In this document: positions 6,367 through 19,921 of the stretch, piece after piece
Layout: each line of letters begins with the position of its first letter
How positions within the stretch are numbered: position 1 is the first letter of the stretch
Notes under the pieces: generated by a model
Told to the model about the DNA's origin: nothing
Databases searched by the model: none
The model's input: only the letters and a program-made list of their open reading frames with translations
From: Sphingobacterium thalpophilum
GTDB taxonomy: Bacteria; Bacteroidota; Bacteroidia; Sphingobacteriales; Sphingobacteriaceae
DNA: 64,000 nt
Assembly: GCA_945868825.1 (NCBI GenBank)
Contig: CAMBMM010000002.1
Location: 180,252 to 244,251, forward strand
Direction: 5' to 3'
Made by a program: the position numbers and the translations under genes

Positions 6367-8631
6367 CTAGCGTTGTGTAGAAACAGTAGCTCTTAATACC
6401 TCTTTAGAATTGGTACCCACCATAATATCATATTCACCTGGCTCTACCACAAAAGCGCCCTTATCGGTATAAAAGCCCAATTCAGCAGCAGTTAAAGTAA
6501 AAGCTACTTGAATACTTTCGCCTGGTTTTAGGTTAATTTTCTTAAATCCTTTTAGTTCCTGAACGGGGCGCACCAAACTAGCTACTTTATCCCTAATATA
6601 CAGTTGAACAACTTCTTCTCCAGCGTATTTGCCCGAATTGGTCACTTGTACACTTGCTAGGATAGTTCCATCTGCAGCAACGGTAGTTTGCAAATTGCTA
6701 TACGCAAATTGGGTATAGCTTAAGCCATAACCAAAGGGATACAAGGCATCGTTAGATTCATCGGTATAATGCGACCAAAATACTTCTGATTTAGGTCCCG
6801 GGCGGCCCGTAGAAAAGTGATTGTAGTACAAAGGCATTTGGCCTACACTTCTAGGAAAACTCATCGTTAATTTTCCACTCGGATTGTAGTCGCCAAACAA
6901 TACCTGTGTAAGTGCGGTACCAGTGGTGGTACCCAATTGCCAAGCTTCTACAATAGCCGGAATATGGATATTGGCCCAAGTTAACACTAAAGGGCGGCCA
7001 CTCATAACTACCAATACGATGTTTTTATTTACTCGATACACCGCTTCTAAAAGTTGCTGTTGTACCCCGGGTAAATCTAAATTACTGCGGCTACGACCTT
7101 CACCAGATTGCATGCCGTGTTCGCCTAAAACCATAATAACTACTTCGCTTTTTTTTGCCAAGGCCACTGCTTCAGCAAAGCCCGTAGTATCGCTGGTGTT
7201 AATTTGTAATTCTACCGGGAAAGAGGCTTCGTTGGTAATAACATCAGCACCTTTTGCATAACTAAATGCTATTCCAGCTGCGGTTAAGCCTTCGGTTACA
7301 GAGGTAGCCGAGTTATCGTCAGATCCCATACGCCAATTACCCAATGGGCTATTTTTATCGGCTGCCAAGGCACCTATAACCGCAATATTTTTTTGTGACT
7401 TCGCTAAGGGAAGTAGGTTTTGGTTATTTTTTAATAATACGATTGATTTTTTAGCCATGTCTAGCGCTGTGGCTAAATGAGCAGGGCTATACAGTTCTGT
7501 TTTCTCCCGTTTTGCATCGCAATATTTATAGGGATTATCGAATAAACCCAATTCGAATTTAATGCGTAAAATTCTGCTTACGGCATCATCAATTACGTTA
7601 ATGGCTACCCTGCCTTCTTCTACCAATGTTTTAAGGTAGGCAACATAGGCATACGATTCCATATCCATATCGCTGCCGGCATTAGCAGAAAGTTCGGTAA
7701 CTTGTTTTAAATCTTTGGCAAAACCATGGTCTACCATTTCTAAGCCTGAGCCCCAATCGGAAACCACAAAGCCTTTAAACCCCCAGGCATTTTTAAGAAT
7801 ATCTCTTTGTAAAAATTTATTGGCGGTGGATGGAACGCCATTAATAATATTAAACGAATTCATAAACGTGGCTACGCCAGCATCGGAGGCAGCTTTAAAT
7901 GGAGGAAAAATAGTATTGAACAGGGTATAGGTACCTATATCAACGGTATTGTAATCTTTACCCGATTCGGCAAAACCATAGCCTGCAAAATGCTTGGCAC
8001 AGGCCGCAATAGACGTTTTATCTGCCAATGATTTTCCCTGAAAACCTTTTACACGTGCTTGTGCAATGAGCGCCCCCAAATACGGATCTTCTCCGGCACC
8101 TTCCATTACCCTACCCCAACGGGCATCGCGGCTAATATCTACCATGGGCGCAAAAGTCCAATTTACACCAACCGCACTGGCTTCTTCAGCCGCCATACGG
8201 GCCGATTGTTCCATAGCTTGCAAATCCCAACTAGCCGATTCGGCTAAAGGAATAGGAGAAAGCGTTTTATAGCCGTGTACCACATCGGAACCAAAAAGCA
8301 AGGGAATGCCCAAACGAGTTTGCTTTACAGCTATTTCTTGTAGTTTACGCACTTCGGCTACACCACGAACATTGAGCACTGCCCCAACTAAACCACTTTT
8401 TAAATGATCGTATTTTAGTTTGGCACTGCCTTCTTTGGGTGCTGGGCCGGTAGCCTCATAAAACCCATTGTACTGATTCATTTGTCCTATTTTTTCATCT
8501 AAAGTCATTTTGGCTAATAGGGTTTTTACTTTAGTTTCAATGGGATCGGTTGCTTTTTGCTGCTGTGCGAATACGCCTTTGCTAGCAGAAAAAAAGACAA
8601 ACAAGAAGCAAATGAAGAATAGGTTTTTCAT
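6367..8631 (-). CDS. bglX: GH3 beta-glucosidase (BglX type)
   Basis: About 754 residues, periplasmic. A signal peptide (FFSASKGVFAQ) is followed by the GH3 N-terminal barrel. The nucleophile Asp lies in VVSDWGS at about residue 291. A GH3 C-terminal domain follows, and an Fn3-like domain closes the protein from about residue 665. It releases glucose from short beta-glucans. Last gene of the locus, it would finish digestion of oligomers made by the GH16 enzyme. The ATG at 8631 is chosen because it begins a clean signal peptide; an upstream in-frame ATG at 8655 would lie inside a strong hairpin. That hairpin separates it from the rest of the operon. Confidence 0.93.
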   Translation of the reverse strand: MKNLFFICFLFVFFSASKGVFAQQQKATDPIETKVKTLLAKMTLDEKIGQMNQYNGFYEATGPAPKEGSAKLKYDHLKSGLVGAVLNVRGVAEVRKLQEIAVKQTRLGIPLLFGSDVVHGYKTLSPIPLAESASWDLQAMEQSARMAAEEASAVGVNWTFAPMVDISRDARWGRVMEGAGEDPYLGALIAQARVKGFQGKSLADKTSIAACAKHFAGYGFAESGKDYNTVDIGTYTLFNTIFPPFKAASDAGVATFMNSFNIINGVPSTANKFLQRDILKNAWGFKGFVVSDWGSGLEMVDHGFAKDLKQVTELSANAGSDMDMESYAYVAYLKTLVEEGRVAINVIDDAVSRILRIKFELGLFDNPYKYCDAKREKTELYSPAHLATALDMAKKSIVLLKNNQNLLPLAKSQKNIAVIGALAADKNSPLGNWRMGSDDNSATSVTEGLTAAGIAFSYAKGADVITNEASFPVELQINTSDTTGFAEAVALAKKSEVVIMVLGEHGMQSGEGRSRSNLDLPGVQQQLLEAVYRVNKNIVLVVMSGRPLVLTWANIHIPAIVEAWQLGTTTGTALTQVLFGDYNPSGKLTMSFPRSVGQMPLYYNHFSTGRPGPKSEVFWSHYTDESNDALYPFGYGLSYTQFAYSNLQTTVAADGTILASVQVTNSGKYAGEEVVQLYIRDKVASLVRPVQELKGFKKINLKPGESIQVAFTLTAAELGFYTDKGAFVVEPGEYDIMVGTNSKEVLRATVSTQR

Positions 8632-8648
8632 GAATAAGAGTATAAAAA

Positions 8649-8682
8649 CATGCATTTGACCCGTTTACGGGTCAAATGCATG
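8649..8682 (-). terminator. Perfect 15-bp stem hairpin with T tract, between GH16 and GH3 genes
   Basis: Two perfect 15-base arms (CATGCATTTGACCCG and its complement) flank a 4-base loop. On the minus strand the stem is followed by TTTTTATA. It looks like an intrinsic terminator or attenuator, or a 3' stabilising hairpin. It sits 15 bases after the GH16 stop and 17 bases before the GH3 ATG. Confidence 0.75.
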
Positions 8683-8697
8683 CAAAGAAAGCAATTG

Positions 8698-9747
8698 TTA
8701 TTTATAAATGCGGATATAATCTACTTCCATGGTGGAACTTGTAAAGGCCGGATCTACAGAACCACCAAAAGTACCGCCCATAGCCACATTTAAAATCAAG
8801 AAAAATTCTTGATTAAAGGGCAAAGCATTGGAATTGGCAACGGTATGTATCAACTGGTCATCTACATAAATTTTGATGCTGGTAGCAGACCAGTCTACAC
8901 TATATATATGAAATTCGGTTGAAGCATTGTTAATAACCCGTGTAGAACCATCGGGATTGCCACCAAAACGACCTGGGTAATGGAGTGTGCCATGAATCCG
9001 ATTTTGATCGTTTCCTTTATGCTCCATAATATCAATTTCGCCGCAATTTGGCCAACTCACCGCATCAATGTTATTCCCCAACATCCACAATGCAGGCCAG
9101 GTGCCACCACCCGCAGGCAGTTTTGCCCGAATATCTATGCGGCCATATTTTACCGAAAATTTTCCTTTAGATAACAATCGGGTAGAAGTAAAGGCAAATC
9201 CGTTTGAATTTTCTCGTTTAGCAATAATTTTAAGCGTACCGCCACTTACCAGCACGTTGCTGCTATTTTGGGTATAATATTGTAATTCTTGGTTACCCCA
9301 ACCACCTTGGCCATTTCCTAGATCGTAACCCCAAGTAGCTGTATTGGGTGCGCCGTTTACATCAAATTCTTCGGCCCAATATAAGCTTGGTGCGCTTGGA
9401 ACTACCGTAACCGAAACCGAAATGGTTTTAGAAACCGATTGCCCATTGCTTGCTGTTGCGCTTACCACTACACTAAAGGTATTGGTACCAGTAAGGGTAT
9501 ACTTGTGTGTTAGTATGCCAGTTGGTTCGGTTTTAGTTATACCATCGCCAAAAACAAAGCCATAAGAAGCCGCATTGGTGGCTGTGGCGGTAAAGTTCAC
9601 GTTGCCGCTACCATCAAGGCTTACCTGCGTGCTCACTTGCAAATTGGCGGGGGCTGAAGGCTTTACGCTATCGGCCCCTGCTTTTTTGCACCCAATCAAT
9701 AACAGGCATAAGAAGATATATAAACTTAGTTTTTTGGTATAGTACAT
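8698..9747 (-). CDS. GH16 endo-beta-glucanase (laminarinase-like) lipoprotein with PKD domain
   Basis: 349 residues. The signal peptide ends in the lipobox LLIGC (Cys about 20), so the enzyme is membrane-anchored and may be surface-exposed. A PKD-like domain occupies about residues 30-115 and a GH16 catalytic domain about 118-349. The catalytic pair is in GEIDIMEH (two Glu, about 236-241), the form found in beta-1,3-glucanases. HGTLHYPG and the terminal MEVDYIRIYK are typical of laminarinases. It likely cuts beta-1,3- or mixed-linkage glucan at the cell surface. It starts 1 nt after the preceding lipoprotein gene's stop, so the two are translationally close. Confidence 0.92.
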   Translation of the reverse strand: MYYTKKLSLYIFLCLLLIGCKKAGADSVKPSAPANLQVSTQVSLDGSGNVNFTATATNAASYGFVFGDGITKTEPTGILTHKYTLTGTNTFSVVVSATASNGQSVSKTISVSVTVVPSAPSLYWAEEFDVNGAPNTATWGYDLGNGQGGWGNQELQYYTQNSSNVLVSGGTLKIIAKRENSNGFAFTSTRLLSKGKFSVKYGRIDIRAKLPAGGGTWPALWMLGNNIDAVSWPNCGEIDIMEHKGNDQNRIHGTLHYPGRFGGNPDGSTRVINNASTEFHIYSVDWSATSIKIYVDDQLIHTVANSNALPFNQEFFLILNVAMGGTFGGSVDPAFTSSTMEVDYIRIYK

Positions 9748-9748
9748 A

Positions 9749-10639
9749 TTATTTTACTTTAAATTTTTGGTACCAGGCATTGCCATCGGCACCAATGCTA
9801 CGCACAGAAAGTGTGGTTGAAGTAATCTCCAAAATTTCATACGTAGACGTACCCACACCCCAGCTCAATAAACCATGGCCCGGTACTGTAAATTTGATAC
9901 GGGTTGAATTGGCTGTGGTGCTATTAGAAGTGGCATCAGTAAAGGCCAAGGCTTTTGTACCTGTGGTGTTTAGAGTATTTATACCACCAGCTAAACTATA
10001 ATAACCGGCATAATCGGGTATAATAAAAGTATTACCCTTATTATCCAATACCAAAGAAATGGAATTGGGTCCGGTTTTGGTGAAAGTTAATTCATCGTCG
10101 TACTCGGCAGCAGTACGACTATTTGCAGCTGCACCATACCATTCTGGATAAAAAGAAGTTGCGGGACCAACACCAATATGACCCCAAGCACCTTTATCGG
10201 CAATCCAAATTTTGGAAGTACCGCCGGTTAAGCCGGTCATAATGGCTGTTGGAATATTGAATAAACGCAACACGGTTATTTTTTTACTTAATGTTGATAC
10301 CGCTCCACCCGTACCATTGGCCGTTACGGTAATGGTATACTCAAAAGTACCTGGATTGGCGTATTGATGTACCAAGGTTCCCGGAGAAACCAGTTGTGTT
10401 TGGCCATCGCCAAAATCAATTTTAAAATTAATAACGTTGCTGGCCGCCAAGGTGATAGATACATTACCCGAGCCATCGCCAGTAGGTGTGGCAGCAGCAA
10501 CACCTTGCAATGCGGTAGTAAGGGCTAAGCCCGATGGGTTTTTTAATTCCCCAAAACTATATTCTTCTTTTTTACAGGCGCTTAGTAACGTGAAGCATCC
10601 GATTGCAAAAAGACTGAATGATTTTACGATTGTTTTCAT
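9749..10639 (-). CDS. PKD-domain surface lipoprotein of the glucan locus
   Basis: 296 residues. A lipobox (LLSACKKEE) is followed by acidic/basic residues of the kind seen in surface-exported Bacteroidetes lipoproteins. A PKD-like domain (about 45-125) contains FGDG and a HQYANPGTFEYTI stretch. The C-terminal 165 residues are Trp/Tyr- and Gly-rich and probably form a beta-sandwich. There are no catalytic motifs. By position, between susD and GH16, it is the SusE/SusF equivalent and probably binds glucan. Binding is inferred from context. Confidence 0.8.
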   Translation of the reverse strand: MKTIVKSFSLFAIGCFTLLSACKKEEYSFGELKNPSGLALTTALQGVAAATPTGDGSGNVSITLAASNVINFKIDFGDGQTQLVSPGTLVHQYANPGTFEYTITVTANGTGGAVSTLSKKITVLRLFNIPTAIMTGLTGGTSKIWIADKGAWGHIGVGPATSFYPEWYGAAANSRTAAEYDDELTFTKTGPNSISLVLDNKGNTFIIPDYAGYYSLAGGINTLNTTGTKALAFTDATSNSTTANSTRIKFTVPGHGLLSWGVGTSTYEILEITSTTLSVRSIGADGNAWYQKFKVK

Positions 10640-10659: not shown

Positions 10660-12222
10660 TTAATTAAGAGTAATGTCGTCGAAATAATAAATACTGCCGG
10701 GAACATGGCCACCGCCACAGTCAAAATCGAAAAACACTACCGCCACTTTAAGTGGGTTGGTTGGTGTTAGACTAGTAAAATCGAAGGTGAGTTCTTCCCA
10801 GCCATTGGCTACGGTTGTTACCGCATCTACATCTATACCACTTCCATCGCCCAAGCCATAATCGAACTTAAATTTCACGGTTTTACCTACAGCAGGAGAC
10901 CATACTTTCATTTTTATCACTTTTTGCGTGAAGTTGAAAATTGGATACTCTAAAGGCAGTGAAGTACCAGACCAGCATTCATTTCCTTTAATGGATTTCC
11001 CAACTTTCGAGCTTGTGTTTATACCACTTACATCTGGGTTGTTTTCAACCGTTGCGCCGGCACCTCCAAAACTATCTAGGAAATAATTAGTCATAGAGGA
11101 TTGGAAATCGATAGGTAAGGTTTGTCCTATTTGGCTTTGCAAACGGATGTCGTCCATATAGAAGGTGAAGTTTGCACTACCATCGCCCATGGTTCCATTA
11201 TCGAAAATAAACACGAGGGTAGTATAATTACCGGCCGGAATATTGCTATAATCGAAAATTAGATCTTCCCATTCGTTGGCTACTGTTGTGGAAACTGTTT
11301 TTTCATAGTTAATTCCGCCAGCGCCTTCAACTTTTAACAATACCGTAGCGCCCACTCGTGGCGACCATACTTTCATGCGGAAAATTTTACCGGCAGAAAA
11401 ATTGATTGGACCAGAAAGTGCCATGGTACTACCACCCCATGGTTGTCCACCATTTTTTACCATTTTAAGTACTTTGGTGGTGGTATTAATGCCAGTAGCC
11501 GCAGGATTATTTGCCACAGTTAAAGCACCCCCATCAAAATTTCCAATAAAGGAAGCATAGTTTAAGGTGGTAGATTGTAAAGTTATAGGTAAGGTTACCG
11601 GATCTTCTACAACTACGCTTTTGGTAACCGTTGTGCTAGCTACACCACCACTTAGGGCAGTTACAGTTACTGTATAAGTACCCGGTGCGGCATAAATGTG
11701 GTTTTTGGTTTCGCCCTCTAAGAACGATACCGGAACCTCATTGGCACCACCATCACCGTATTTCACTTTAAACAAGGTTTCGTATAAAGCCGTTGCCGAT
11801 ACGTTTACTTTGAACTTATTACCAGCATCAATAGTTGCGGTAACTTGTACATTTTCTGGTGCACGAAAGGATACGGTTAATTGTTTAGTGCTTTCAGAAA
11901 TTTTACCACTAATGCTGTAGGCTACTGAACGCACAGAATACACCCCTTCTGGGTACACGTGGGTTACACTTGCACCAGGCAATACACGAACGGCGGTAGC
12001 TGGGCCATGACCATAATAAATGTCGTAGGCGGTAGCACCCTCACCATTTGGCGTGATGGTTACCAAGCCGGTATTGTCTTGGGTGATGTTAAAAAACGGA
12101 TTCAAGTTTGCAGGTGCACTGGCTGTTTCCAGAAAGGATAGGTCGTTAAACGTATCTTTTTCGCAACCTGCAAATACAAGCAGCACTAGGGCTATGCTTA
12201 GTATGTTTTTGATTGATTTCAT
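10660..12222 (-). CDS. Multidomain glucan-binding lipoprotein (two PKD-like, two tandem CBM-like modules)
   Basis: 520 residues, lipobox LLVFAGC (Cys about 20). Two PKD-like domains lie at about 38-120 and 125-207. Two homologous modules of ~150 residues follow, at about 212-362 and 366-520. Both modules repeat the elements NNP-x-x-x-GINT, KVWSP and a WE(D/E)L-FD strand, and both end in a YMDDI or YFDDI strand. This resembles CBM4/CBM-like beta-sandwich folds. No catalytic residues are apparent. It probably captures polysaccharide at the surface for the SusCD complex. It lies 21 nt after the susD stop. Confidence 0.82.
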   Translation of the reverse strand: MKSIKNILSIALVLLVFAGCEKDTFNDLSFLETASAPANLNPFFNITQDNTGLVTITPNGEGATAYDIYYGHGPATAVRVLPGASVTHVYPEGVYSVRSVAYSISGKISESTKQLTVSFRAPENVQVTATIDAGNKFKVNVSATALYETLFKVKYGDGGANEVPVSFLEGETKNHIYAAPGTYTVTVTALSGGVASTTVTKSVVVEDPVTLPITLQSTTLNYASFIGNFDGGALTVANNPAATGINTTTKVLKMVKNGGQPWGGSTMALSGPINFSAGKIFRMKVWSPRVGATVLLKVEGAGGINYEKTVSTTVANEWEDLIFDYSNIPAGNYTTLVFIFDNGTMGDGSANFTFYMDDIRLQSQIGQTLPIDFQSSMTNYFLDSFGGAGATVENNPDVSGINTSSKVGKSIKGNECWSGTSLPLEYPIFNFTQKVIKMKVWSPAVGKTVKFKFDYGLGDGSGIDVDAVTTVANGWEELTFDFTSLTPTNPLKVAVVFFDFDCGGGHVPGSIYYFDDITLN

Positions 12223-12243: not shown

Positions 12244-13725
12244 TTAATTATAACCAGGGTTTTGTGTTAATCCCGAAATATCTACCTCGGCTTGTGGAAT
12301 AGGAAATACCTCGTTTTTATTGGCTACCCAACCCGTAATTTTACTAGCTGCTTGGCCGGTTCTTACTAAATCGAAGAAACGCTGACCTTCCATACCTAAT
12401 TCTAAACGGCGTTCGTCCCAAATGACCGTTTTTAAGGCGGTGCCCGTTGCGGTACTTCTGTGTAAAATATCACCAAAAGCACGATCACGTATACGGTTTA
12501 AGTATAGCAAGGCTTTAACATCATTTGGTGAGGCCATACGGTTGTTTGCTTCGGCTGCCATTAACAATACATCGGCATAACGAATAGCACGGTAATTGTT
12601 TAAGTAGTTTAATTCTACCTGACCTGAAGTTTGGCCTACTCTTGGTAAATACTTTTGATTGTATAAACCCGTGTTTTTGTATGGAGCCACGGTATAGGTA
12701 ATATTCATACCTGCATTGGCTGTTTTATAGGCTTCAATATCTAATACGGTGACCGCTTTACGGGTATCGCCGGCAGCAAATGCTGCTGCTAAATTAGCCG
12801 TAGGCAAGTTGGTACTCCAGCCCGATGCATACGAGCTAGTGCCGGTTAGGTTACGAATGCCGCAAATTTGTACGGCTAAGTTTCCTTGTCCTCTACCCGG
12901 GTTAGACCAATCGTAAAAAGGACTTCCATTGGAGTACTGCACTTCAAATACCGATTCGGAACCATTTTCGCCGGCTTGCAAGAATATATTGCCGTAATTA
13001 GTTAACAAACTAAATGGTCCTGTTACCACATTTTCTAACATGGCTGCTGCTTCGGTAAATTTATCTTGATATAAATATACTTTACCTAATAAAGCTTGAG
13101 CAGCATACTTGGTTGCTCTACCTTGTTGTGAATTGCTTACAGGCAAAGCAGCAATAGCTGCTGTTAAATCAATCTCAATTTGAGTGTATACCTGCGCTTT
13201 GGTAGCACGTTGGAATTTGTTAGAATCGCCCACCGATAAACGCTTGGTGGTAAATAAAGGCACACCACCGAACATTTTTACCAACTCGAAGTAGTAATAT
13301 GCTCTTAGGAAATAAACCTCTCCGTAAAGTGCAGTTTTACCGGTAAAATCTAATTTAGCTTTGTTTTCTTCTAAATAGTTAGCACGATTAATGCCCTCGT
13401 AACAAGATTTCCAGATTTCAGTTAAGTTGCCATTATTAGCAATTATCTGATAGTCGTCTATTTGTTGTAAGGCCACTTGATCGGTGGCATTTTCGCCGCC
13501 TGTTACCGAGTTATCAGAAGCAATTTCGCCAATTACTGGCACTGCCCATAACCATTGCATGGGTGAATAAACCCCAATGGCCATTTTTTGATAATCTTCG
13601 GCTGTTTTAAAATAATTATCTGCCGTAATTTGATAATCTTCTTGAGGATTGTAGTCGACAAATTTGGTACAACTGCCAAAGGTGCTTACTAAAAATAATC
13701 CGATGATGTATGTATACTTTTTCAT
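12244..13725 (-). CDS. susD: SusD/RagB-family glycan-binding lipoprotein
   Basis: 493 residues with lipobox STFGSC (Cys about 18) and the helical SusD fold. An early ADNYFKTAEDYQKMAIG helix, TPR-like helices with RAYYYFELVKMFGGVPL, and the C-terminal RRLELGMEGQRFFDL signature are all classic SusD. It caps the neighbouring SusC channel and binds oligosaccharides. It lies 17 nt downstream of susC, the usual coupling. The ATG at 13725 gives the better signal peptide; one at 13731 adds Met-His. Confidence 0.95.
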   Translation of the reverse strand: MKKYTYIIGLFLVSTFGSCTKFVDYNPQEDYQITADNYFKTAEDYQKMAIGVYSPMQWLWAVPVIGEIASDNSVTGGENATDQVALQQIDDYQIIANNGNLTEIWKSCYEGINRANYLEENKAKLDFTGKTALYGEVYFLRAYYYFELVKMFGGVPLFTTKRLSVGDSNKFQRATKAQVYTQIEIDLTAAIAALPVSNSQQGRATKYAAQALLGKVYLYQDKFTEAAAMLENVVTGPFSLLTNYGNIFLQAGENGSESVFEVQYSNGSPFYDWSNPGRGQGNLAVQICGIRNLTGTSSYASGWSTNLPTANLAAAFAAGDTRKAVTVLDIEAYKTANAGMNITYTVAPYKNTGLYNQKYLPRVGQTSGQVELNYLNNYRAIRYADVLLMAAEANNRMASPNDVKALLYLNRIRDRAFGDILHRSTATGTALKTVIWDERRLELGMEGQRFFDLVRTGQAASKITGWVANKNEVFPIPQAEVDISGLTQNPGYN

Positions 13726-13742
13726 GTGCATATTTTTAACTG

Positions 13743-16700
13743 TTAAAATTTAACATCAAGTCCGAACGACCAAGTTCTGGCTTGTGGATAGGCTCCACGA
13801 TCAATTCCGGTATCGAAAATACCACCCGAAATTTCTGGATCGTAGCCAGAGTACTTGGTAAATACAAAGGCGTTTTTAACCTGAGCATATAGTCTTACTT
13901 TGCTTACGCCTAAACGCTTAAGCGTAGTGTTAGGTAAGGTATAGCCTAATTGTACGTCTTTAATTTTTAGAAAGCTTCCATCTTCTACATATCTATCAGA
14001 TACACGGGTATTCTGATTGGCATCTGTAAAACTATAGCGTGGATTTCTTGGATCGTTGGTAGAACCTTCACCGGTCCATCTAGCCAATACACCTCTGTAT
14101 TTATTGGTCATGGCTAGGTTACGCTCGTAGGCTCTGTAAATATCATTACCTACAGATGCGTAAATAAAGGTATTAAAATCAAAAGCCTTATAGGTAAGGT
14201 TTAAGCTCCAACCCAAGGTAAAGGTTGGGAACGGATCGCCAATTTTAGTTCTATCTAAATCAGAAATCAATCCATCTCCATTGATATCGGCAAAACGAAT
14301 ATCACCCGGTACCGCATTGGTTTGCGTAGGTGCACCAGCAATTTCGGCGGCATTTTGGAAAATACCCACGGTTTTAAATCCGTAGAAATATCCAGGGGTT
14401 TGTCCTTTTTCAAAACGGGTTACGCTTTGGTACGGAATACCATATCCACCGCCGGTAATTAAACCATTGTTAGTTTCGGTTACTTCGTTTTTAGCAGTAG
14501 TAAAGGTAAGGTTAGAGCTTACTTTCCAGTTTTTACCTACAGCATTGTTATAACCTAGGTTTAAATCGAAACCGCTTGTTTTGGTGCTACCAATATTTGC
14601 AGTTGGCGCAGAAGCTGTACCTAAGTATAGCGATAAGCTTGGGGTAAACAATAAGCCACTAATTTGTTTCTCGAAATAATCTGCTGTTAAGGAGAATTTG
14701 CTATTCGCAAAATTTAAATCGAAACCGGCATTTAATTGCTTTTGTTTTTCCCATCCTAAATCCTCGTTTTTAAACGAAGCAATGGTTGCACCAATAGAGG
14801 TTGGATCGTTGCCAAAGGTATATCCGGCATTTTGGCCCGAACCATATGCATAGGTTAAGGTAGAAATTCGTTGGAATTGTGGGCTTACGTTTTCGTTACC
14901 TGTAATACCAAAACTTCCTCTTAGTTTTAAATAATTGATGAAGTTTACTTTGAAAAAATCTTCGTCTGATACGATCCATCCTAATGATCCTGCAAAGAAA
15001 TTACCAAATTTATTATTGGCACCAAATGCATATGAACCATCTCTACGGGCAGAGAAAGAGGCTAGGTATTTATCTTTGTAATCGTAATCGATACGGGTAA
15101 AGTAAGATAAGTTTCTGCGCTCATATTGGTACGAACCTACATCTAACCCAGAGTTTGGTGCAGTACCTGTTGCTGAAGAAATGTCGGCAAAATCCCAAGA
15201 GTTAAACGGAACATCTTGACGAGAACCGCTCACTGAATTTCCGGTTACTTTAGCCATGGCCATACCAAAAACCGTTTCGAAATGATGATCGGTATTGATA
15301 TTGAAGTCATAGTTGGCAAAGTTTTCTAAATTGTAATTGTAGTACGAGGTTTTTACTTCATACACGTTATTGTGCGAACCAACTTTGGTAGTACCATCGG
15401 CATTTAAAGTAGAGTTAATATGGCCGGTACCATAAAATGATAGCGGTGTAAAGGCCTTGCCTGTTACATCGGTATTGGTATAGCCATAACGTGAGGTTAC
15501 TTTTAAGTTTTTAAGTAACTGGTACTGTAACTCAAATTTACCGTACGTTTTATTGGTATTGTATTGGTTGTGTGTATCGTCTAACTGCGTAAGTGGGTTG
15601 TAAATTTCTGATAAAATAGTGTTACTTACACTATACTTACCATAAGTACTAGCCACATTGTTATAAACGGGTACTGTTGGGTCGAAGTTTAAAGCATTAG
15701 ATATAACACTATTGATAGCGTTTTCTGGAACACCAGCACTACGAATATTTACAAAGCTGGTATTTACAGTAGCTTTTAATCGTTTGCTTACATCAAAATT
15801 TAAGTTTGCTGTAGCGTTGTAGCGATTAAAGTATGACTTATCGGCACCACCTACAATACCGCCCTGACCAGTAAAAGCACCTGATACAAAATAGGACATA
15901 TTATCGCTTCCACCTCTTGCGGTTAAGCTATGAGAGGCAAGCGCAGCATTTTTAAAAATTTGATCTTGCCAATTGGTGCCCACTCCTAAAGTGGATAAGT
16001 TAGGGAATAAAATAGCACCGCCCGATGCTACGCTACCCTCGTTTAACATAGCAGCATATTCAGAAGCATTTAGTACACCAATGGTGTTTAATACTTGTTG
16101 GTTACCAAAGTTGCTACTATAATTTACTTCAGTTTTTTGATTTTTCTTACCAGATTTAGTAGTCACAACAATTACACCATTACCACCTTTTACACCATAA
16201 ATGGCGGTAGTGGCTGCGTCTTTTAATACGTTTATCGACTCTATATCGGCGGCATTAATTGAATTCAAATCGTCGAGGCTTTGAATGGATCCATCAACTA
16301 CCACTACCGGATCGGTACCGGTGTATGAAGGAATACCACGAATAAGCACCGTAGGTTTAGCACCCGGCGAACCGGTTGATACTACAGTTACCCCGGAAGC
16401 TCTACCCTGTAAAGCATCCTCAGCTCTAACTGGTTTTAGTCTTTCAATATCGGCACCTTTAACGGTAGATATTGCACCAGAAATTTTGGTAATTTTTTGT
16501 GTGCCATAACCTACTACTACCACCTCGTTCATTAAGGTGTTTAGGTCTTCTAAACTTACTTGTATAGTTCCCGCTTGGTTAACTACGTACTTGTAAGGTT
16601 TAAAACCAGTGTAGGAAATACTTAAGGTGCTTCCCTTAGTAACGCTAAGGGTGAAATTTCCTTTAGCATCGGTTTGGGTTGCTTGAGCAGTTCCAACCGC

Positions 16701-16841
16701 ACTTACGGTAGCACCAGCTAAAGGCTCGGCTGTTGACTTACTCTTTACTGTACCAGACACCTGAAGTGTTTGTGCAGCAGCTTGCTGAATAAAACAAGCC
16801 ATAAGTAACCCAACACAGAACAATGTGAATCTAAATTTCAT
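13743..16841 (-). CDS. susC: SusC/RagA-family TonB-dependent glycan transporter
   Basis: 1032 residues: signal peptide (1-23), a carboxypeptidase-regulatory-like domain (about 27-103), the SusC signature NEVVVVGYGTQ (about 105-115), a plug domain ending near residue 240 and a 22-strand barrel closing with the terminal Phe (DVKF). It imports oligosaccharides across the outer membrane using TonB energy. It is the first gene of the minus-strand locus that continues with susD, two lipoproteins, GH16 and GH3. This set points to beta-1,3-glucan (laminarin) as substrate, by comparison with characterised laminarin loci of marine Bacteroidetes. Confidence 0.96.
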   Translation of the reverse strand: MKFRFTLFCVGLLMACFIQQAAAQTLQVSGTVKSKSTAEPLAGATVSAVGTAQATQTDAKGNFTLSVTKGSTLSISYTGFKPYKYVVNQAGTIQVSLEDLNTLMNEVVVVGYGTQKITKISGAISTVKGADIERLKPVRAEDALQGRASGVTVVSTGSPGAKPTVLIRGIPSYTGTDPVVVVDGSIQSLDDLNSINAADIESINVLKDAATTAIYGVKGGNGVIVVTTKSGKKNQKTEVNYSSNFGNQQVLNTIGVLNASEYAAMLNEGSVASGGAILFPNLSTLGVGTNWQDQIFKNAALASHSLTARGGSDNMSYFVSGAFTGQGGIVGGADKSYFNRYNATANLNFDVSKRLKATVNTSFVNIRSAGVPENAINSVISNALNFDPTVPVYNNVASTYGKYSVSNTILSEIYNPLTQLDDTHNQYNTNKTYGKFELQYQLLKNLKVTSRYGYTNTDVTGKAFTPLSFYGTGHINSTLNADGTTKVGSHNNVYEVKTSYYNYNLENFANYDFNINTDHHFETVFGMAMAKVTGNSVSGSRQDVPFNSWDFADISSATGTAPNSGLDVGSYQYERRNLSYFTRIDYDYKDKYLASFSARRDGSYAFGANNKFGNFFAGSLGWIVSDEDFFKVNFINYLKLRGSFGITGNENVSPQFQRISTLTYAYGSGQNAGYTFGNDPTSIGATIASFKNEDLGWEKQKQLNAGFDLNFANSKFSLTADYFEKQISGLLFTPSLSLYLGTASAPTANIGSTKTSGFDLNLGYNNAVGKNWKVSSNLTFTTAKNEVTETNNGLITGGGYGIPYQSVTRFEKGQTPGYFYGFKTVGIFQNAAEIAGAPTQTNAVPGDIRFADINGDGLISDLDRTKIGDPFPTFTLGWSLNLTYKAFDFNTFIYASVGNDIYRAYERNLAMTNKYRGVLARWTGEGSTNDPRNPRYSFTDANQNTRVSDRYVEDGSFLKIKDVQLGYTLPNTTLKRLGVSKVRLYAQVKNAFVFTKYSGYDPEISGGIFDTGIDRGAYPQARTWSFGLDVKF

Positions 16842-16895
16842 ATTGAAATTGGTTTAATTAATAAAAATTGGTTAGTAAAAATTACAATTGGTAGG

Positions 16896-16923
16896 ATAAA
16901 TATCAGCGATACGAACACAACAA
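16896..16923 (-). promoter_or_regulatory. Candidate promoter of the glucan susC operon
   Basis: On the minus strand, TTG (16921-16923), an 18-base gap and TATTTAT (16896-16902) give the spacing of Bacteroidetes -33/-7 promoters, with a poor -7. A weak core promoter is what one expects when an activator is required. The 11-bp repeats begin 11 bp upstream of the -33 element. Confidence 0.45.
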
Positions 16924-16934
16924 CCAAAAAAATA

Positions 16935-16956
16935 ACTACATCAATACTACATCAAT
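16935..16956. repeat. Tandem 11-bp repeat, candidate operator for glucan locus
   Basis: ACTACATCAAT occurs twice head-to-tail without spacing (16935-16945, 16946-16956). It sits just upstream of the susC -33 element. One unit equals about one helical turn, so two protomers would bind side by side on one DNA face. It is probably bound by the divergent LuxR-type regulator (inference). Confidence 0.65.
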
Positions 16957-16998
16957 ACCAATAAATAATTCAATTTTAATAGATTTACACCATACAAC

Positions 16999-17009
16999 AC
17001 TACATCAAT
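16999..17009. repeat. Third copy of the 11-bp repeat, next to the regulator's promoter
   Basis: An exact ACTACATCAAT, 53 bp from the second unit (about five turns) and ending 5 bp before the TTG of the regulator's own promoter. Its position suggests autoregulation or looping with the tandem pair. Confidence 0.6.
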
Positions 17010-17014
17010 ACGTT

Positions 17015-17043
17015 TTGAATGCTTGCTCAATGCATTAAATTTG
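17015..17043 (+). promoter_or_regulatory. Promoter of the propeller/LuxR regulator gene
   Basis: TTG at 17015-17017, exactly 18 bases, then TAAATTTG at 17036-17043, a perfect TAnnTTTG element. The ATG is 7 nt further, so the transcript is leaderless or nearly so. Confidence 0.75.
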
Positions 17044-17050
17044 AAAATAT

Positions 17051-19921
17051 ATGAAGAGAATTATCTTATTCATTCTATTGCCTTTTAGTTTAATGGGCCA
17101 AAACACCATTGGCTTGCCAGATATTGTAAATCATACCAAACAAACCTATGGCGCTGGTTTACAAAATTGGGATATTAAACAAGATGAAACTGGCTTAATG
17201 TATATAGCCAATAACGAGGGCTTATTAACTTACGATGGAAGTTATTGGCACGTATACCCCCTACCTAACAAAACCATTGTACGAGCTATAGAAATTAAGG
17301 ATGAGAAGATTTATGTTGGCGGGCAAGACGAGCTTGGCTATTTCAGCCCGACACAAAATGGGACTTTGGCTTATCACAGCTTGGTATCAGCCTTGCCAAG
17401 CAAAGTGCGATCATTTGGAGATGTATGGGATATTGTAAGTATAAATAAACAAGTTTTTTTTAGAACCAGTGGGGCTATTTTTAAGTTGAGTGAAGGACGC
17501 ATGAGTGTGTATGCCCCAAATTCAGAATGGTCGTTTTTAGGCATAAGCGAAGGCAAGATATATGCCCACGATTTTAAAACCGGGCTTAAAACTTTTGAAG
17601 ATAACGCATGGGTACCCCTACCGAATCAAGAAAAATTGCCTCCATCGGTAATTCCTACCGCAATATTGCCCCTAAAAAATGGTACATCTTTATTAAGCAC
17701 ACTTAAACACGGACTGTATACGATTGATAAAGATGGTATAACCAAACTCCAAAAAAACACAAATGCCCTTTTTGAAAATGAACGCCTCTACTCAGCTACT
17801 GCTATTGATGGAAAAAGTATTGCACTAGCCACTACCAATGGCGGTGTATATATCATTAATCTCAATGGAGATATTCTACAAGGATTTTCTAAAAGAGAGG
17901 GATTGCAAACCAACAATATTTTAAGTGTTTTTGCCGATAAAGAAAATAATTTATGGCTGGGCTTAGATAATGGAATTGATTTTGTAGCATACAACAGTCC
18001 CATTAAACAATTGAACCCGTTGTTGCAAAATGCTTCGGGCTATACGGCCATGGTATTTGAAAATAAATTTTGGTTGGGTACGTCTAGTGGTTTATATACT
18101 GTTCCCTTACAAAACACTAGCGACCTTAGTTTTAGCAAGGGAGCATTTAGTTTAGTTGCAAATACCAAAGGGCAAACATGGAACTTATCAAAAATTAATG
18201 ATCAGTTGTTTTTGGGACACCACGAAGGTGCATTTATGATTAAAAACAATGCTGCAGTTCCTTTAGCAAGTGGAAAAGGTTTTTGGAATTTTTTGGCGTT
18301 AAGCGCAACTATGCCTAGTTCAGAAATTATTGCAGGAACGTATACTGGCTTAGTAAGCTTTAAAACACAAGGTAACACTCTTATTAAAAAAGATGACTTA
18401 TTGGGTAATTTCAAAGAATCATCTCGTTTCGTTAGTATAGACGATGGCGGAAATATCTGGGTATCGCATCCGTATCATGGTGTTTTTAAATTGGTTAAAC
18501 AAGCAAATAGGCCCATATCAATATCTAAGTATTCCGAAAAAAAAGGATTAACCTCTAGTATGGATAATCAGGTTTTTAAAATCAATAACCAAATTTTGGT
18601 GGGTACCCAAAAAGGGGTATATCAATACGAGGCAGAAAAAAATCGGTTTAAACCAGCACCATTTTATCAGAAGCTTCTAGGTAAAAAAAGTATTCGTTAC
18701 TTAAAAGAAGATGGAATGGGTAATATTTGGTTTATACACGAAAAAACATTGGGTGTAATAGATGTTAGCGACAAACAAGCAAGGATAATTTATCTCCCAG
18801 AACTTACAGGTAAACTGCTAAGCGGTTTCGAATATATTTACCCCTATAACATGCAAAATATTTTTATTGCAGGCGAAAAGGGTGTATTCAATGTGAATTA
18901 TGAAAAATATAAATCCAACATACCCAACCTACGTGTAAGCATACGTTCGGTTAAAATTAGCGGTCAGAAAGATAGCGTACTTTTTGGTGGATATCGTATT
19001 ACAAAGATCCGAAATGAAAATCCAAAAATTGGACATACCTGGAAAAATATGCGTTTCGAATTCTCTGCTGCAGTATTCGCAAGCTTATCTACATTAGAAT
19101 ACAGCTACCGAGTAAAGGAATTAGATAATACATGGTCTGAATGGAGCCCACGTACCGAAAAGGAATTCACAACACTGCCTGCCGGTAGCTATACCTTTGA
19201 AGTAAAAGTTCGCAATAATTTGGGTAACGAATCGCCTATAGCCAGTTACCAATTTGAAATTGTACCACCTTGGTATCTAACGCTCTGGGCAAAACTAATT
19301 TATGCCGGCTTGGTGTATGTGGGTATTGTATTTTTACATACTTGGTATAAACGTAAATTGCGATTACAACAAGGCAAACATAACGATGAACAACAGAAAC
19401 TTAAATATATACACGAGCTTGAGCTCTCTAAAACAGAGAGTGAGTTGGTTAACCTACGCAACGAAAAGTTAGAAACTGAAATTACGTTGATGAATACAGA
19501 ATTAGCCTCTGCAGCTATGCATTTGCTTAAAAAAGGTGAGGTTTTGGCTAAAAATAAGGAGGAGTTAAGCAAGGTATTAAAAGTGGTTGATCATCCAGAA
19601 GCAATTATTGAGCTAAAGAAAATGATGCGGAACTTAAATGATGATGAAAAAATGGACCAAGAATGGGAAAGTTTTAGTAAACATTTTGATAAAGTACATA
19701 GTGACTTTTTAGCAGGCCTAAAAGAAAAGTACCCGACAATAACCCCAAATGAATTAAAATTATCGGCCTACTTACGTATGAATTTATCTACCAAAGAAAT
19801 AGCTCAATTAACCAATATTTCGGTTAGAGGCGTAGAAATTGGCCGGTATAGACTGCGAAAAAAACTCGAAATTCCAAGTGAACAAAATTTATTTGACTAT
19901 TTAATGGGCTTTAAACACTAA
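17051..19921 (+). CDS. Membrane-spanning glycan sensor-regulator: beta-propeller, Y_Y_Y domain, LuxR-type HTH
   Basis: 956 residues with a signal peptide (ending LMGQ). A periplasmic two-component-regulator-type propeller (about 25-640) holds repeats such as NNILSVFADKENNLWLGLDNG. A Y_Y_Y domain (about 660-735), one membrane helix (about 745-766), a cytoplasmic coiled coil (about 775-830) and a C-terminal LuxR/GerE helix-turn-helix (about 896-942, LSTKEIAQLTNISVRGVE) follow. There is no histidine kinase or receiver, so sensing and DNA binding are in one chain. It is divergent from the glucan locus and most likely activates it when oligosaccharide binds. The stop overlaps the stop of the opposite gene. 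Confidence 0.9.
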   Translation: MKRIILFILLPFSLMGQNTIGLPDIVNHTKQTYGAGLQNWDIKQDETGLMYIANNEGLLTYDGSYWHVYPLPNKTIVRAIEIKDEKIYVGGQDELGYFSPTQNGTLAYHSLVSALPSKVRSFGDVWDIVSINKQVFFRTSGAIFKLSEGRMSVYAPNSEWSFLGISEGKIYAHDFKTGLKTFEDNAWVPLPNQEKLPPSVIPTAILPLKNGTSLLSTLKHGLYTIDKDGITKLQKNTNALFENERLYSATAIDGKSIALATTNGGVYIINLNGDILQGFSKREGLQTNNILSVFADKENNLWLGLDNGIDFVAYNSPIKQLNPLLQNASGYTAMVFENKFWLGTSSGLYTVPLQNTSDLSFSKGAFSLVANTKGQTWNLSKINDQLFLGHHEGAFMIKNNAAVPLASGKGFWNFLALSATMPSSEIIAGTYTGLVSFKTQGNTLIKKDDLLGNFKESSRFVSIDDGGNIWVSHPYHGVFKLVKQANRPISISKYSEKKGLTSSMDNQVFKINNQILVGTQKGVYQYEAEKNRFKPAPFYQKLLGKKSIRYLKEDGMGNIWFIHEKTLGVIDVSDKQARIIYLPELTGKLLSGFEYIYPYNMQNIFIAGEKGVFNVNYEKYKSNIPNLRVSIRSVKISGQKDSVLFGGYRITKIRNENPKIGHTWKNMRFEFSAAVFASLSTLEYSYRVKELDNTWSEWSPRTEKEFTTLPAGSYTFEVKVRNNLGNESPIASYQFEIVPPWYLTLWAKLIYAGLVYVGIVFLHTWYKRKLRLQQGKHNDEQQKLKYIHELELSKTESELVNLRNEKLETEITLMNTELASAAMHLLKKGEVLAKNKEELSKVLKVVDHPEAIIELKKMMRNLNDDEKMDQEWESFSKHFDKVHSDFLAGLKEKYPTITPNELKLSAYLRMNLSTKEIAQLTNISVRGVEIGRYRLRKKLEIPSEQNLFDYLMGFKH

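Follow-up and report, generated by a model that had tools for sequence, protein, structure and literature searches.

A putative composite operator of paired 11-bp repeats between a beta-glucan operon and a propeller/LuxR-type regulator gene in Sphingobacterium thalpophilum

In the SusR-like regulators of Bacteroides, direct-repeat motifs with boxes 67 or 77 bp apart have been predicted (Ravcheev et al., 2013; PMC3878776). These long repeats were explained by a large membrane protein binding to one face of the DNA, through a DNA-binding domain without similarity to known ones (PMC3878776). Direct-repeat motifs are also reported for the hybrid two-component systems (HTCS) of Bacteroides (PMC3878776). 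Among the transmembrane transcription regulators (TTRs), Y_Y_Y is listed as one of the common domains, and no sites for Y_Y_Y regulators were found in that survey (PMC10269533). In marine Flavobacteria, laminarin clusters begin with regulators annotated as LuxR (PMC13188888), and other regulators are treated in two further papers (PMC12125979; PMC5698469). Membrane-anchored propeller/LuxR regulators adjoin many polysaccharide utilization loci, and the class is common and little studied. No defined DNA site for the Reg_prop/Y_Y_Y/LuxR class was found in the literature searched, which most subscription journals lie outside, and a search of this literature for the letters of the boxes described here returned unrelated matches only.

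The window analysed here is a 64-kb stretch of DNA from Sphingobacterium thalpophilum. On its reverse strand lies a gene for a susC-like TonB-dependent receptor (13743-16841; Pfam Plug, TonB_dep_Rec_b-barrel and CarbopepD_reg_2), which would open the proposed target operon, together with genes encoding a susD-like lipoprotein (12244-13731; SusD_RagB and SusD-like_3), two PKD-domain proteins (10660-12222 and 9749-10639; PKD_4), a GH16 glycosidase (8698-9747; Glyco_hydro_16) and a GH3 glycosidase (6367-8655; Glyco_hydro_3). The PKD protein at 10660-12222 is conserved beside susD in orthologous loci. As judged from its Pfam domains, GH16 and GH3 in particular, the series susC-susD-PKD-PKD-GH16-GH3 is a beta-glucan utilization operon.

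The divergent gene (17051-19921, forward strand) encodes a regulator of 956 amino acids with Pfam Reg_prop and Y_Y_Y domains. A periplasmic propeller/Y_Y_Y sensor is followed by a transmembrane helix at about residues 743-762, a coiled coil and a C-terminal LuxR/NarL-type helix-turn-helix (HTH) at about residues 895-955; the strongest hydrophobic peak of the protein falls at the predicted transmembrane helix, between sensor and HTH. Sequence matches of the sensor in the PDB were 3v9f, 3ott and 4a2l, which are propeller sensors of HTCS. No histidine kinase, receiver or AraC-type domain was detected by Pfam, and the protein is therefore taken to be a one-component membrane regulator, having, like other one-component transmembrane regulators, a predicted transmembrane helix and an HTH in one chain with no kinase. 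Pfam also detected no acyl-homoserine-lactone (autoinducer) domain, and the regulator shows propeller and Y_Y_Y domains only.

The assignment of the C-terminus to the LuxR/NarL type draws on several comparisons. The AlphaFold2 model (mean pLDDT 86.6, pTM 0.48) contains a long helix and then the C-terminal HTH. GerE (PF00196) was matched in 55/55 family members at E values up to 1, the best being 5.4e-8, and the regulator of the window scored 21.9 bits, just below the cut-off of 23.5. Foldseek aligned the HTH with the DNA-binding domains of VraR, DosR, ComA and LiaR at an rmsd of 2.1-2.4 A over about 57 residues, with target TM scores of up to 0.83 and no match at E <0.001. DUF6377 was weakly matched in the C-terminal regions of 24 of the 55 family members.

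Between susC and the regulator gene lies an intergenic region of 209 bp (16842-17050), which holds three exact copies of ACTACATCAAT on the forward strand (16935-16945, 16946-16956 and 16999-17009); the exact string occurs nowhere else in the window. A sequence-only reading of this DNA had pointed out the three boxes and their spacings of 11, 53 and 64 bp, and it was right in both respects. It had overlooked the conserved core, the 9-bp ACTACATCA, and the pairing of this core at an 11-bp period. Pattern searches of the source genome (1.66 Mb in four contigs) gave six exact copies of ACTACATCAAT with both strands counted, and the three outside the intergenic region are solitary and lie within long open frames. 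Since no second pair of ACTACATCA was found in this genome by a pattern search allowing up to three mismatches, the operator looks like a dedicated single-target switch.

All boxes are direct repeats, and no reverse-strand box of at least 7/9 was present in the upstream 330 bp of the window. A lux-box (inverted-repeat) reading was rejected, as the intergenic region of the window holds no inverted copies. The core ACTACATCA, as found in the window between 16935 and 17009, is also a mirror string with identical letters when read backwards, which is probably a coincidence. Reversed-pattern controls are for this reason uninformative, and shuffles and coding controls were used instead.

When 84,980 species genomes were scanned, relatives of the regulator were found encoded at 49 loci in Sphingobacteriaceae, Chitinophagaceae and Saprospiraceae, with the same box in the upstream regions. 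Most of these regulators are 47-63% identical to that of the window, two are 89-92% identical and two 34%. Of 44 non-redundant orthologous intergenic regions, 39 had a tandem arrangement ACTACATCA-N2-ACTACATCA scoring at least 15/18; this score was reached by 0/43 coding stretches taken from these genes and by 1/880 dinucleotide shuffles. The sequence-only reading had proposed to look for the boxes at related loci, and dozens of such loci, orthologous or homologous, have kept them, so that they are neither absent from relatives nor equally common in shuffled sequence. One such Bacteroidota regulator with its boxes (L067) is on a contig labelled as a Streptomyces griseus MAG, a bin label that is evidently wrong.

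Slippage can create any single 11-mer repeat in AT-rich DNA, and two copies of some 11-mer did arise in 339/5000 dinucleotide shuffles of the intergenic region. Three copies of any 11-mer arose in 3/5000. A chance or slippage origin of the boxes was nevertheless rejected on their conservation and is of negligible probability, given that sequence, period and spacing are all maintained between regulators merely 50-60% identical, and beyond.

Autocorrelation of the upstream regions, which makes no use of the motif, peaked at a lag of 11 in 35/50 (3.8 in shuffled sequences) and at a lag of 54 in 31/50 (shuffled 2.6). The usual layout is two tandem pairs about 54 bp, or five helical turns, apart, the complete architecture being pair, 43 bp, pair when counted from box to box. 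From pair to pair the distance is 52-56 bp, mostly 54, in relatives and 53 bp in the window. All four boxes are present in the cultured relatives Lacibacter cauensis and L. luteus (L039/L078). The susC-proximal pair of the window (op1; 16935-16954, forward strand) has the form ACTACATCA-AT-ACTACATCA, a direct repeat of period 11. The third box (op2; ACTACATCA, 16999-17007, forward strand) corresponds to the second half of a pair in relatives, and its partner position (16988-16996, forward strand) is occupied by CACCATACA, a decayed first half-site with 2/9 matches. Because a pair stands at the matching position in relatives, the apparently single third box is best read as the surviving half of op2, that is, as the remnant of a second pair reduced to one half-site in this window.

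A weak additional box may be present on the susC side, where AACACAACA (6/9; 16914-16922, forward strand) lies two turns from op1 and overlaps the putative -33 TTG of susC; this candidate is tentative. In some relatives a clearer box is found 21-22 bp past the pair, and it is exact in L034. A subgroup with a divergent GH16 gene (L035, L037, L038, L062, L073 and L074) has its two regulator-nearest boxes 22 rather than 11 bp (two turns) apart, and most of these loci also have a weaker box at a further distance of about 54 bp.

The predicted susC promoter lies on the reverse strand at 16897-16923, with a putative -33 TTG (CAA at 16921-16923 on the forward strand) and a weak -7, GATATTTA, at 16904-16897. 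The putative regulator promoter (17014-17043, forward strand) has a -33 TTTG at 17014-17017, an 18-nt spacer and a -7, TAAATTTG, at 17036-17043, and it fits the Bacteroidetes promoter consensus TTG/TAnnTTTG. Both TTG triplets noticed earlier are thus present. The susC -7 of the window matches weakly; when 34 relatives are aligned without gaps, a TAnTTTT block is conserved as the -7, at a fixed 30 bp from op1. Relative to the predicted susC start, op1 of the window occupies about -43 to -62 and is upstream of the -33 element, which is a class I-type activator position.

This placement bears on the sign of control, which is itself deduced from position. The boxes could instead be a regulator-bound repressor site that is relieved by glucan, as op2 overlaps the expected -33 of the regulator gene in relatives. 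We regard repression as unlikely, as a susC-proximal pair upstream of the -33 at a fixed distance is in a typical activator position, and SusR, a comparable regulator, is an activator of its operons (PMC3878776). Activation of susC by the regulator is the likely outcome of such an arrangement.

The sequence-only reading had assigned the tandem pair to susC and the single box to the regulator, which amounts to two separate operators, op1 activating susC and op2 autoregulating the regulator gene. The geometry of divergent loci lends this some appeal. In relatives the distance from op2 to the -7 of the regulator gene, which follows it, is nearly constant, the second box of op2 overlapping the expected -33, and in the window the third box directly precedes the regulator's -33. 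The polarity of the boxes relative to the regulator gene is, however, the reverse of that seen at other targets, and two further comparisons speak against independent operators.

The first of these is a natural swap in gene order, observed among more distant family homologues (30-46% identity) in which susC is either divergent from the regulator gene or downstream of it. Where susC is divergent and the recognition helix canonical (orthologues included), boxes are upstream of the regulator in 35/35. Where susC is downstream and the helix canonical, 16/17 loci have them 3' of the regulator's stop codon and just 1/17 has them upstream of the regulator. This swap argues that the conserved role of the boxes is played at susC rather than at the promoter of the regulator gene itself. 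A different composite layout was seen in loci L201-L217, also more distant homologues, which carry ACTACATCATTACCTCTCA directly after the regulator stop codon and TGATGTAGTAATGTTGAGGT nearer to susC, the two being mutually inverted and about 150 bp apart.

The second comparison comes from sites remote from the regulator, to which a pair search in 45 genomes led. Remote boxes were located upstream of relocated susC orthologues in five genomes (G004, G006, G009, G015 and G040), and also upstream of a large secreted GH16 protein and of secreted Big_2/Por-tail proteins. In the resulting 21 unlinked promoters, several of which come from genomes related to each other, 51 of the 52 boxes of at least 8/9 are on the strand opposite to the target gene, and a box-to-box lag of 53-55 bp is present in 12/21, with a shuffled expectation of 0.03 per set. 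The pair served as the search pattern and in part dictates the 11-bp period found there; the long lag and the polarity are independent of it. Since the spacing of about 54 bp is kept at unlinked promoters with no divergent regulator gene nearby, one composite operator reads better than two separate ones, with the boxes divided between the two genes. Two separate operators are thus a possible but rather doubtful arrangement, and autoregulation through independent operators, as a conserved function, is weakened by both the swap and the unlinked composites. In divergent loci, with op2 overlapping the -33 expected for the regulator gene in relatives, the regulator may also act on its own gene, but self-regulation is not what has been conserved.

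In several Chitinophagaceae (L121:3550-13406, L114:6420-8243, L113:1728-5048, L231 and L126), boxes stand before large secreted Big_2, Por-tail or GH16 proteins, which apparently belong to the same beta-glucan regulon. Three or more boxes in 11-bp register were also noted at L112:7299-7340 and L113:1536-1566, before a gene of TonB-receptor size and a secreted Big_2 protein.

The protein that reads the boxes was approached through co-occurrence. In 151 genomes of the family, a regulator homologue stands within 131 bp of each of the 10 pair matches that have no more than one mismatch, and within 300 bp of 7 of the 15 matches that have two. In 295 genomes from across the class, a strong pair match was found in four, and the regulator is encoded in 4/4 of these versus 37/295 overall. 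In two genomes of the same genus (88 and 93% complete) that gave no regulator match, no strong susC match and no pair with two or fewer mismatches was found. In other families the boxes persist upstream of many regulators merely 31-38% identical that have the recognition helix RGVEI. With the helix (R/K)AVEV the boxes are usually replaced, often by CTACAAY-type repeats. Some regulators with a canonical helix have no recognizable pair (e.g. L236, L249, L263 and L269). A shifted specificity is likely at several loci with the helix T(I/V)KAVEV (L185-L193, L196 and L199), where the tandem repeats keep the 11-bp period but are of the CTACAATACC type.

The association between helix and motif, which is mostly that of one clade, is strong in a raw Fisher test, but the G/A change is a single event on the tree. 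A wider set contained eight helix changes, and of seven independent pairs 4.2 were concordant and 0 discordant (median p 0.125, not significant). Covariation of the recognition helix was for these reasons dropped as independent proof and is kept merely as supporting. Some other transcription factor might bind the boxes, if regulator presence and sites each simply follow the locus. We consider this quite improbable, as all ten strong family matches adjoin a regulator homologue, strong matches across the class are confined to regulator-bearing genomes, and the sites persist across gene arrangements and weaken with a changed recognition helix. The neighbouring membrane-anchored sensor protein is very probably what binds the boxes.

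Taken together, conservation, architecture, polarity, the tracking of susC, co-occurrence with the regulator and the type of its HTH give us good confidence that the boxes form a composite operator serving the beta-glucan operon and that the neighbouring one-component propeller/Y_Y_Y/LuxR-type-HTH regulator binds to it and would activate susC. Direct binding, dimer stoichiometry, activation and the ligand are all parts of this reading that we infer. In full, the layout consists of two ACTACATCA-N2-ACTACATCA units of one polarity, on the strand opposite to the target and five turns (about 54 bp) apart. Glucan fragments would be sensed by the periplasmic propeller of the divergently encoded membrane regulator, whose cytoplasmic LuxR-type HTH dimers, once it is activated, would occupy each 11-bp pair head to tail. 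The two units, on one DNA face, would be bound together, and the occupied operator would switch on susC transcription. The sequence-only reading had likewise suggested a LuxR-type activator that switches on susC and tunes itself. The idea of an activator is supported, and a regulatory site tied to the regulator and to susC agrees with the conservation, the adjacency and co-occurrence counts and the LuxR/NarL-type C-terminus; self-tuning as a general feature is not borne out by the loci with a downstream susC.

A wider proposal, to which we give even chances, is a family-wide operator code of the Bacteroidota one-component propeller/LuxR-HTH regulators. In such a code, two 11-bp tandem units five turns apart would be read away from the target and bridged by membrane-tethered HTH dimers, with the letters (TACATCA versus CTACAAY) set by the helix (RGVEI versus (R/K)AVEV). 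If true, the regulons of the propeller/LuxR-HTH class would become predictable from sequence. A defined site, polarity and spacing may make regulons predictable in uncultured Bacteroidota, and with them it could be tested directly in what way an activator tethered to the membrane gets to the DNA.

Among regulators with a related fold, LuxR/NarL-type domains (FixJ, VraR, DosR, RcsB, ComA) usually bind twofold inverted half-sites; the HTH fold is shared here, whereas the sites are head-to-tail direct repeats. The HTCS share the propeller/Y_Y_Y periplasmic sensor and the control of polysaccharide utilization loci, but combine a histidine kinase, a receiver and an AraC HTH in one chain, where the present regulator has a LuxR-type HTH reached via a coiled coil. 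With the TTRs it has in common that it is a one-component, membrane-anchored DNA-binding regulator, and here a site and a regulon are proposed for it. The nearest known kind are the SusR-like regulators, which share a membrane regulator with a periplasmic sensor and a cytoplasmic C-terminal DNA-binding domain, targets in susC operons and a long-spaced direct-repeat layout. The likeness is drawn from layout and not from motif letters, and it has its differences, as SusR has two boxes at 67 or 77 bp and the present units are 11-bp tandem pairs at 52-56 bp read by a LuxR-type HTH. A layout that recalls SusR in this way hints at a common geometry for membrane-bound regulators of glycan uptake.
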